Part shown: one piece after another, positions 61,017 through 64,000 of the stretch
Numbering within the stretch: the first letter of the stretch is position 1
How the letters are laid out: each line of letters opens with the position of its first letter
The notes under the pieces: generated by a model
The model's input: only the letters and a program-made list of their open reading frames with translations
Told to the model about the DNA's origin: nothing
Databases searched by the model: none
Program-made: the position numbers and the translations under genes
Source of the DNA: Desulfurococcaceae archaeon MEX13E-LK6-19
GTDB lineage: Archaea; Thermoproteota; Thermoprotei_A; Sulfolobales; Desulfurococcaceae
DNA: 64,000 nt
Direction of reading: 5' to 3'
NCBI GenBank assembly: GCA_029637525.1
Contig: CP072660.1
Location: 1,823,612 to 1,887,611, forward strand

Positions 61017-62276
61017 TTATGGTACAAGTCTTGTCCTATCTCTAACGAATATTATTGCTTCTCTTATGTTTTCAAGGCCAAGCATGCTAACCATCAATCT
61101 TTCGAGACCGAGACCGAATCCTCCATGAGGAGGCATACCGTACTTGAACGCTTCTAGGTAAAATGAGAAGTTACTGGGATCTAGGCCTTTATCTTTCATC
61201 GCCTCAACAAGTTTATCATACCGATGTTCTCTTTGTCCACCACTTGATATTTCTAGACCCTTATAGTCGAGGTCAAATTTTCTTGTATGGTATCCGTCTT
61301 CTTCTCTCATATAGTAGAAGCCTGTTGTAGGCCACGGGAATTTTGTTATGAAGTATATTTCATATCCTTTCTCCATCAATATTTCGCCTAGTTTTCTTTC
61401 AGCAGATTCACTGAGGTCTTCGCCTTCGGGAACCTCTATACCTTCGCTTCTCAGTATATCGACGGCTTCTTCATATTTTATCCTCTTAAAAGGCACTGAG
61501 AGAGGCTTTATTTCAACACCGAGTATTTCAAGTTCTTCTTTACAGTTACTTCTAACGTAATCGACAATGTACTTGACAAGGTTCTCAAGAGTATTCATGA
61601 CATCTTCTTCGCTTTCAATGAAGCCCTGCTCTACGTCAATACCCCATGATTCGTTTAAATGTCTTCGTGTATTGAATTTCTCTGCTCTAAAATAAGGTGT
61701 TATCTCATAAACTCTCGGTATACTAGTCATCAACATTTGCTTATACAACTGTGGGCTCTGGCTCAGATATGCTTTGTACTCAAAGTATTGTACGGGAAAG
61801 AGTGTTGCTCCGCCTTCAGCACCAGCAGCAACTATTTTTGGTGTATGTACTTCTAGGAACCCATTTTTCTCGAAGTACTCACGTGCAGCTTTGAGTATAC
61901 TTGCACGTATTCTGAACAATGCCTTCTCTATGGGATTCCTTAACAACAAGTACCTGTACTTTATACGGGTATCAAGTAACGTCGGTACTTTACCAACAGT
62001 GTCAACAGGTAATGGCTCAACAGGCTTAGAGTACACTTTGACGCTCTTAGCAATATACTCTATACCACGTTTACTCTTCTGTTCAGGAGCAATTTCTCCT
62101 TCAAAGCAAAGAGCTGTACCTACATCAAAATTCTTTGCCTGCTCGAAAAGCTGCGGCTCCCTATCCTTCTTAAAAACTATGACTGCAGGTTTGACGTGTT
62201 CTCCTACACTAAGCTCTACTATAACTACTTTACCCAAGACCTTTTGTCTAATAACCCAACCACAGACTCGTGGCAT
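61017..62276 (-). CDS. aspS: Aspartyl-tRNA synthetase (archaeal type)
   Basis: Class IIb synthetase. An OB-fold anticodon-binding domain (about 1-95) precedes the catalytic core; motif 1 lies near FRIRASILKAAREYFEKNGFLEVHTPKI (about 118-145, quoted in part), motif 2 is PYFRAEKFNTRRHLNE near 196, and motif 3 is GFGLGLERLMVSML near 392. Whether the enzyme is discriminating or also makes Asp-tRNA-Asn is set by a few anticodon-site residues that I did not resolve. ATG 62276 is the start. The gene is transcribed away from the GC-rich RNA region. Confidence 0.95.
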   Translation of the reverse strand: MPRVCGWVIRQKVLGKVVIVELSVGEHVKPAVIVFKKDREPQLFEQAKNFDVGTALCFEGEIAPEQKSKRGIEYIAKSVKVYSKPVEPLPVDTVGKVPTLLDTRIKYRYLLLRNPIEKALFRIRASILKAAREYFEKNGFLEVHTPKIVAAGAEGGATLFPVQYFEYKAYLSQSPQLYKQMLMTSIPRVYEITPYFRAEKFNTRRHLNESWGIDVEQGFIESEEDVMNTLENLVKYIVDYVRSNCKEELEILGVEIKPLSVPFKRIKYEEAVDILRSEGIEVPEGEDLSESAERKLGEILMEKGYEIYFITKFPWPTTGFYYMREEDGYHTRKFDLDYKGLEISSGGQREHRYDKLVEAMKDKGLDPSNFSFYLEAFKYGMPPHGGFGLGLERLMVSMLGLENIREAIIFVRDRTRLVP

Positions 62277-62415: not shown

Positions 62416-62432
62416 TATTTTAAAATATATAA
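62416..62432 (+). promoter_or_regulatory. TATA box of the GC-rich structured RNA
   Basis: ATTTTAAAATATATAAG at 62416-62432 is a strong TATA-type tract whose centre lies about 26 bases before 62450, just upstream of the point where GC content jumps. It is oriented to drive a plus-strand transcript starting near 62448-62452. This supports the transcription direction and 5' end of the structured RNA; no protein gene on the plus strand could use it within the window. Confidence 0.6.
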
Positions 62433-62449
62433 GTATGCTTAACAGAAAA

Positions 62450-62640
62450 TACTCTCGGCGGCCAACCGCCCAGCGCCGCCAGCCTACCCGGACCCGGGCA
62501 AGTGAGTCCAATAACATGATGTACTATCATGTTTTTGGGCGAGCCTGGGGCAACCACGGGCTGGCGGCGACCCCGAGAGGGGTGGGCTCCCGGAGGTGGT
62601 ACCGGGTCTCCGGGGCCCCTGGGCGGGCTATGGCTCATTT
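62450..62640 (+). ncRNA. GC-rich structured RNA, four-way junction, unknown family
   Basis: In the 472-base gap 62277-62748 a 190-base block of very high GC content stands out from AT-rich DNA. By hand it folds into a closing stem (62466-62473 with 62619-62626, 8 bp) and three arms separated by single unpaired bases: a long arm (62474-62484 with 62559-62569, 11 bp) with an internal loop, a second 7-bp helix (62493-62499/62543-62549), a kink-turn-like G-A pair element at 62504-62505/62541-62542 and a long hairpin; a 4-bp stem with a GAGA tetraloop (62571-62582); and an 11-bp arm (62584-62595/62608-62618). A T-rich end at 62637-62641 may terminate it. Overlapping small frames are not protein-like. 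It does not look like SRP, RNase P, 5S or tRNA. Confidence 0.75.
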
Positions 62641-62748
62641 TCGCTATCAAGTTCTGTTATAAATGTTTTGTCTTCACATACACACAATACGGGGTTTTTG
62701 TTATTAAAAGCAAAAATATTGAATTTAAGGCAAATAGTTTTGTTTAAA

Positions 62749-64000
62749 TTAGGGTATTGTTTTTATTATTCTCTTTCTTATTTCCTCGATTACTATTATG
62801 GTATGGCTTAATAGCATAATAGCCAATAGCTCTATAAGATATGGGGTTACTGCTCCAAGTAACCAAGGTACTAAGAATACTGGCGCTATAGTTAGTATGA
62901 ACCCTGCTATATAGCTTAGCGGGTGGTATTTGTTTCTCAATAACCCTATTTCGAATAATGATTTATCTGGACTCCTTATGTTGAAGCTGTGTGCCAGCTC
63001 ACCTATTGATAATGTTAAGAACGCAAGTGTTGGTCCATGTAGTTTGAATAACTGGGCAGAGGCTCCTGTAAGCAAGGATAACATTGCACCTATGTAGAAC
63101 AAGTATATGAGCCCTGTTTTACCAAGTAATGGCTTGAGACTTGTAGGCGGCTTTTTCATAACATCTGGTTCAGGCGGCTCTATACCAAGTGTTATTGCTG
63201 GCAGGGAGTCTGTTACAAGATTTATCCATAAAATCATCGCTGGTGTTAAGAGTAGTTCCTTCAACAATACGATGCTACCAAGCACAATCATTACTTCAGC
63301 CATATTAGCAGATAAGAGGTACAGTGTTGCTTTCCTTATGTTATTATAGCTTGTCCTGCCTTCCTCTATAGCTGCAACTATTGTAGCAAAGTTATCGTCC
63401 TCAAGAATAAGGTCAGCAGCCTCTCTAGCAACATCGGTCCCCCTGAGACCCATGGCAACTCCTACGTCAGCAAGTTTTAGTGCTGGCGCATCATTTACAC
63501 CATCACCAGTCATGGCAACAACTTCGCCTTTCTTCTTTAATGCTTTCACAATCCTTAGCTTGTGTTCTGGAGTAACACGTGCAAACACAGCAACTCTATC
63601 TATGATTTTTTCGAGTTCATCATCACTCATCCTATCTAAATCCTTACCAGTAAGCATTAGTTTCCCTTCTAAGGGAAGCCCAATCATTTCAGCGACAGCC
63701 CTAGCAGTCAACAAATGATCTCCCGTAACCATAATGACCTTTATTCCAGCTTCAATAGCCTTCTTGACCGCTTCTGGAACCTCTGGTCTAGGCGGGTCTA
63801 TGAGCCCAGTGTAGCCTATGAATACAAGGTCTTCCTCTAATTCTGTGTCCTGCAGCTTCACCTCTTTGAATGCGTAAGCAAGGACTCTAAGACCCTTGGC
63901 AGCCATTTCTTCAGCTATAGCCAGCAACTGTTTCTTTTCTTCATCACTAAGCTTTAGTACAACACCATTCCTCACTATATAATTTGATTTCGCGAGAATG
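62749..64000 (-). CDS. P-type cation-transporting ATPase (calcium-type), N-terminus cut by window edge
   Basis: The C-terminal part of a P2-type ATPase, open through base 64000. Visible: the end of the nucleotide domain (about 20 residues read before GTG 63975), VMVTGDHLLTARAVAEMI and the hinge MTGDGVNDAPALKLADVGVAMG (in part), then membrane helices with NMAEVM and WINLVTDSLPAITLGIEPPEPDVM (in part), the M4-M6 type ion site of the Ca/Na/K P2 group, and four further helices. The phosphorylated aspartate (DKTGT) and the first half lie outside the window. It is transcribed toward the structured RNA. Calcium or manganese export is likely; the specificity is unproven. Confidence 0.92.
   Translation of the reverse strand, partial: ILAKSNYIVRNGVVLKLSDEEKKQLLAIAEEMAAKGLRVLAYAFKEVKLQDTELEEDLVFIGYTGLIDPPRPEVPEAVKKAIEAGIKVIMVTGDHLLTARAVAEMIGLPLEGKLMLTGKDLDRMSDDELEKIIDRVAVFARVTPEHKLRIVKALKKKGEVVAMTGDGVNDAPALKLADVGVAMGLRGTDVAREAADLILEDDNFATIVAAIEEGRTSYNNIRKATLYLLSANMAEVMIVLGSIVLLKELLLTPAMILWINLVTDSLPAITLGIEPPEPDVMKKPPTSLKPLLGKTGLIYLFYIGAMLSLLTGASAQLFKLHGPTLAFLTLSIGELAHSFNIRSPDKSLFEIGLLRNKYHPLSYIAGFILTIAPVFLVPWLLGAVTPYLIELLAIMLLSHTIIVIEEIRKRIIKTIP

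Follow-up and report, generated by a model that had tools for sequence, protein, structure and literature searches.

A candidate stand-alone RNA gene of the Desulfurococcaceae with a self-docked fold and a predicted splicing-endonuclease site at its ends

The window, the whole stretch of 64,000 nucleotides analysed here from the genome of Desulfurococcaceae archaeon MEX13E-LK6-19, contains a candidate RNA gene at positions 62457-62641 of the plus strand, preceded by a TATA box, built around a four-way junction and ending in a U-rich stretch. The gene is flanked by aspS, the gene for aspartyl-tRNA synthetase (61017-62276, minus strand), a divergent neighbour in conserved synteny, and by a P-type ATPase gene (62749 onward, minus strand). 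A first-pass annotation of this DNA had described a GC-rich island in AT-rich intergenic DNA, a TATA tract upstream of it and a structured RNA gene with a four-way junction, and these three points stand. GC content is 0.61-0.71 inside the island against 0.20-0.30 in the flanking intergenic DNA. The TATA box, TATATAAG (62426-62433, plus strand), lies 23 nt upstream of the predicted first transcribed G (62457), and a TATA-like box is visible in homologues 23-30 nt ahead of the terminal helix. The probable termination region is the TTTT at 62638-62641 (plus strand); in most homologues the RNA is likewise followed by U-rich stretches. The minimum free energy is -112 kcal/mol; dinucleotide shuffles average -86.7 (sd 4.5), which gives a z of -5.7, and none of 200 is as low. 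The fold of the homologue L002 has a z of -4.1. We reject a coding reading because the 75-aa open reading frame across the RNA is not kept and the homologues vary from 124 to 182 nt. An RNA on the minus strand is less likely, since G-U pairs of the conserved helices would turn into A-C there and the fold is weaker.

Searches of the window and the homologues with Rfam 15, at gathering and at permissive thresholds, gave only chance matches, none of which exceeded a cut-off within the RNA region, in keeping with the annotation's remark that the family was unknown. The open-access literature yielded no description of the RNA, subscription journals being mostly outside the coverage. On the comparative evidence given below, the locus is a real and unrecorded gene, predicted to encode a stand-alone non-coding RNA of a family that is not in Rfam.

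BLASTN with the RNA gave a single real relative, L002, which shares the gene order, and covariance models were therefore needed. A model built on two sequences added L040 and L041, a four-sequence model added two Staphylothermus-type genomes and two of genus g16, and searching around aspS with the filters disabled extended the set to more genera. Two of the carrier genomes we take to be Staphylothermus hellenicus and S. marinus. With a model of 19 sequences, 20 genomes of the class were recovered at E-values of 1e-12 to 1e-21, all of them in the window's own family, the Desulfurococcaceae; taken together, the covariance models place relatives in most genera of this family (about 24 genomes). 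Among 400 genomes sampled across the phylum, matches fell in the Desulfurococcaceae only, under the stricter filters that large genome scans use and that weak relatives elsewhere could escape. The 19-sequence model also gave one match in another family, L128 (E 0.039), which was discarded as antisense inside a coding gene. L042 and L064-L066 were rejected as well, since they looked like chance matches. A DNA-pattern scan of genome contigs gave two true matches, both known carriers, the rest being unrelated bacteria and one Halorubrum record. The predicted RNA family was thus found only in the Desulfurococcaceae among the genomes searched.

The homologues allow the secondary structure to be evaluated pair by pair. 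Stems P2 (62474-62484/62559-62569), P3 (62571-62582) and P4 (62584-62595/62608-62618), drawn in the first-pass annotation from one sequence, are all present at these positions on the plus strand. Its P1 (62466-62473/62619-62626) is present too, but is better described as a helix of 7 bp, 62467-62473 with 62619-62625, followed by a bulge and a 4-bp helix, so that the 3' strand of P1 and the GGCU of the short helix together occupy 62619-62629. Double-sided changes are seen in five of the seven pairs of P1 (helix 2), in 10 of the 11 pairs of the lower P2 stem (helix 3) and in eight of nine pairs of P4 (helix 6). Above its internal loop P2 continues as an upper stem, 62493-62499 with 62543-62549 (helix 4), and a variable apical hairpin (62506-62540). 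P3, a CCCC-GAGA-GGGG hairpin in the window, is also variable; it is absent from the Desulfurococcus-type forms, which are about 143 nt long and therefore have a three-way junction. Standard pairs occupy 98.5% of the pair cells in the 19-sequence alignment, and 30 of the 41 pairs undergo double-sided changes, so that the stems are kept by compensatory change. Neither an Rfam match nor uncompensated loss of stems, two outcomes that the first-pass annotation had named as refuting it, was seen. Covariation scores 0.62, whereas slid partners reach at most 0.12 and shuffles 0.19; the alignment (A10) was fitted to the structure, which biases pair counts in its favour, and the slid controls are still far lower. 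Comparison thus shows both the gene and its predicted fold.

A further contact, absent from the first-pass annotation, joins the P4 hairpin loop to the two strands of the P2 internal loop by base pairing. In the window, the 5' half of the apical loop (GUGGUACCGGGU, 62596-62607, plus strand) docks with the right strand of the pocket, GUGGU (62596-62600) facing ACCAC (62553-62557), and its 3' half with the left strand, CCGGGU (62602-62607) facing ACCCGG (62486-62491). The same pairings are rewritten in L041, as UGGC/GCCA with GCCUGGGG/UCCCGGGC, and read UGGAG/CUCCA with GCCUGGG/CCCGGGC in L060, GGGGG/CCCCC with CCUGG/CCAGG in L088, GGGGGC/GCCCCC with GCCUGGU/ACCAGGC in L106, and UGGGU/ACCCG with UGCGGGG/CCCCGCA in L102. 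Over 17 sequences, docking involves 3-7 bp on the right-hand side and 6-8 bp on the left. Before scoring, the limits of loop and pocket were drawn manually on the folds, and docking was tested by strand-wise permutation; a column-wise pair count on alignment A10 was not used because its pocket columns are out of register. Nine clade representatives score 281, whereas permutation among clades gives 210 (sd 12.8; none of 20,000 as high) and shuffled loops give 163 (sd 10). Read by hand, the lower P2 stem matches P4 approximately in length within every species, with 11 and 11 in the window and about 6 and 7 in L106; arms that lie side by side would be expected to match in this way. The predicted docking is thus shown by comparison as well, and comparative support for this unusual fold is strong. 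The only forms without docking are those of three Thermogladius-type genomes, one of them presumably T. calderae, in which the RNA at this locus is 124 nt long, its P4 is short and a docking loop is missing (L113 2116-2239, plus strand; L129 888-1011 and L130 913-1036, both minus strand). To our knowledge, a double contact between a loop and an internal loop is otherwise known only between separate molecules, in H/ACA RNAs.

The base of the RNA forms a bulge-helix-bulge (BHB), again absent from the first-pass annotation. A BHB is defined as a helix of four base pairs with at least one three-nucleotide bulge, and the splicing endonuclease of this group of archaea is relaxed in specificity (PMC4731332); cleavage separates the second residue of a bulge from the third (PMC2738675). 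In the window, the central helix pairs GGCC (62460-62463) with GGCU (62626-62629). It is bordered by a 5' bulge AAC (62464-62466), mostly RRN across the family, and by a 3' bulge AUG (62630-62632), whose first base is A in all homologues listed, and beyond the latter an outer helix pairs GGC (62457-62459) with GCU (62633-62635). The polarity of this element is that of tRNA-intron sites. Cuts predicted between 62465 and 62466 and between 62631 and 62632 would release an RNA of 166 nt (62466-62631, plus strand), possibly circular, and modelling this segment as a circle keeps all four arms. The central helix, GGCY/GGCY, forms in 23 of 24 homologues as aligned, and in L041 after a shift of one base. 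The sequence GGCYRR...GGCYA (62460-62466 and 62626-62630 in the window) is nearly invariant, the rest of the RNA being rewritten; a plain BHB site would not need it.

The outer helix provides the test of this geometry. With a 3' bulge of 3 nt, outer pairing in 16 clade representatives scores 77, whereas permuted flanks score 25.8 (sd 9.7; p < 1/5000), and bulge lengths of 0-2 and 4-7 gave null results in the same representatives. The signal belongs to the set: single species have 0-5 bp, and only 0-1 bp is found in L002, L040, Staphylothermus, g16, g15 and the g4 group. Comparison in this way shows the predicted BHB geometry and gives good support for a splicing-endonuclease site at the ends. 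Because outer pairing arises only at a 3' bulge of exactly 3 nt, the tRNA splicing endonuclease probably excises the RNA of about 166 nt, and closure of the excised RNA into a ring is slightly favoured. Several species without an outer helix have their predicted start near the central helix, so use of the BHB is uncertain there and cleavage may not be universal. It is to these species that the strongest competing explanation appeals, according to which the family and its docked fold are the same but the RNA is linear with natural ends, the 4-bp helix and the 3-nt bulge being an uncut closing part of P1. The TATA spacing that places their start near the central helix agrees with it, as does the conservation of the GGCY/GGCU sequence, which an endonuclease would not require. 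However, a linear RNA would account neither for an outer helix that arises solely at a 3-nt 3' bulge, with letters that differ between clades, nor for a polarity that is that of a BHB site, and we regard it as rather unlikely.

Excision remains the preferred reading, and its nearest precedent for the ends is the permuted SRP RNA of Thermoproteus, which the splicing endonuclease releases at a BHB, which is circular and whose TATA box lies 26 nt upstream of its start (PMC4731332). Both are stand-alone, TATA-box non-coding RNA genes with a structured body bounded by a BHB, in hyperthermophilic crenarchaeal hosts with a relaxed splicing endonuclease. The window RNA differs in having no SRP match in a genome with its own SRP RNA elsewhere, in a predicted start at, or a few nucleotides before, the central helix rather than a 23-nt leader, and in a circularity that is here only predicted. 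With the BHB motifs of tRNA introns and pre-rRNA it shares the 4-bp central helix, the 3-nt bulges on opposite strands and the polarity; here, by contrast, exons of tRNA or rRNA are lacking, the conserved element is the part that would be excised, and the central helix is conserved in sequence.

Wherever the genomic context is available, the RNA and aspS are nearly always divergent, which raises the question of whether the RNA regulates that gene: the divergent RNA or a shared promoter region might control AspRS levels, or the RNA might bind AspRS. The linkage is kept even though the other neighbour varies (P-type ATPase or rpl35ae), and in G009 the element has moved yet stayed beside aspS. 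But there the RNA sits 3' of aspS and not upstream (L114 528-676, minus strand), in G008 (L041) the upstream ORF seen is not aspS, and the genomes of genus g6 have aspS while the RNA was not found in them; in addition, the RNA lies outside the aspS mRNA, and synteny could persist by shared ancestry alone. We therefore hold regulation of aspS to be improbable. A functional link to the P-type ATPase, which looked perfect in four genomes, fails with Staphylothermus, where the neighbour is rpl35ae. For the ATPase gene beside the RNA (62749-63999 of the window, L044-L046), close relatives were found only in genera g1, g3, g7 and g9 of the family, its other matches being distant.

The first-pass annotation had also noted a resemblance to an H/ACA pocket without a fit to a simple H/ACA guide, and a kink-turn-like element. 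The resemblance can now be explained, as the pocket is filled by the RNA's own P4 loop. The kink-turn-like element, a bulge AAGU plus GA at 62500-62505 opposite GA at 62541-62542 (plus strand), does have tandem G-A pairs in the window and in L002, but it is not family-wide. Against the L7Ae-binding form, with its 3-nt bulge and tandem sheared G-A pairs, the k-turn is by sequence canonical in L002 (UAG+GA/GA), has a 4-nt bulge in the window and reads GA/UA in L040, and none was seen in the Desulfurococcus-type forms read by hand. With the motif altered in L040 and lost in the latter, L7Ae cannot, as judged from sequence, be essential family-wide. One may nevertheless ask whether the RNA is a diverged H/ACA guide, with P2 as the guide hairpin and the P4 loop as a substrate in cis. 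As in an archaeal H/ACA sRNA with bound substrate, a lower stem, an internal loop, an upper stem and a k-turn follow in the same order, and the internal loop is occupied by two short duplexes, often with two unpaired bases at the base of the upper stem, much like a substrate. The k-turn or k-loop of such RNAs lies 5-6 nt above the pocket (PMC7991803), whereas the upper stem here has 7 bp in the window and about 7-8 bp in homologues, as counted by hand, and the Desulfurococcus-type forms do without a k-turn. ACC in the window and GCC in L002 stand after the P2 stem in place of ANA. The pocket strands, themselves unconserved in sequence, covary with the RNA's own P4 loop, which takes the part of the substrate strand; there are extra helices; and a conserved target uridine is missing, with no U in the linker of L040, L098, L106, L111 and L114. 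The linker bases of these species also lead us to reject pseudouridylation in cis. The RNA may therefore look like an H/ACA pocket with its substrate in place, but on the features tested it is not a member, and descent from an H/ACA guide is, if anything, a shade less credible than regulation of aspS.

A known archaeal RNA in diverged or permuted form, such as RNase P or SRP RNA, compatible with the size and GC-richness of this RNA, with the structured, GC-rich nature of archaeal RNase P RNA (RF00373) and with the permuted SRP RNA of Thermoproteus (PMC4731332), is almost certainly not what lies here, as both identities are refuted by the genome's genuine genes away from the window RNA (RNase P RNA at G000:C1:424656, SRP RNA at C1:356052), neither RF00373 nor RF01857 matches at the RNA locus, and the scores of all Rfam families stay well short of their cut-offs. 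RF01857 detected no SRP RNA in seven Desulfurococcaceae genomes (G001, G002, G006, G008, G011, G014 and G015); some of the genomes without a match are rated 93-99% complete, and diverged SRP RNA or assembly gaps may be responsible.

Based on these comparisons, we propose that the best explanation as a whole, and in our judgement a likely one, is an unlisted RNA family with a docked fold, excised at a BHB, closed into a ring and acting as a structural RNP. The TATA box would direct a short transcript, whose four helices (three where P3 is lost) would join at a tight junction. With the P4 hairpin lying beside the lower P2 stem, of similar length, pairing of the P4 loop to the two internal-loop strands would hold both arms together. 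The transcript ends would form a BHB with the polarity of tRNA-intron sites, at which the heterotetrameric tRNA splicing endonuclease would cut both bulges and free a body of about 166 nt. RtcB could subsequently close this body into a ring, with the nearly invariant GGCYA capping P1. The product might function within an RNP as a heat-stable structural RNA acting in trans, bound by L7Ae wherever a k-turn is present and touching its partner through the GGCYA cap; this trans-acting role, with the cap as contact site because GGCYA is the best-kept sequence, we advance tentatively. Whether the RNA represents an undescribed archaeal class, an endonuclease-excised circular cruciform of about 166 nt locked by a loop that pairs with both internal-loop strands at once, appears to us evenly balanced.

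In either case, Rfam lacks a conserved RNA gene that most genera of this well-studied family carry. If the BHB is used, this would be a rare stand-alone gene for a BHB-excised, possibly circular product; we know of such products otherwise only from tRNA, rRNA and the SRP RNA of Thermoproteus. Excision, fold and binding are directly testable in cultivable species.

Within the family, we found no copy of the RNA in genera g6 and g13. The nesting of g6 among carriers in an aspS tree built without an outgroup, in which some of these nodes have low support, suggests that the RNA was lost there. Some g6 genomes carry a tRNA-Met gene upstream of aspS (L105 2183-2257, L132 681-754 and L133 652-726, all minus strand); in L104, L107 and L110, where ARAGORN made no call, similar GC-rich sequence suggests intron-bearing tRNAs.
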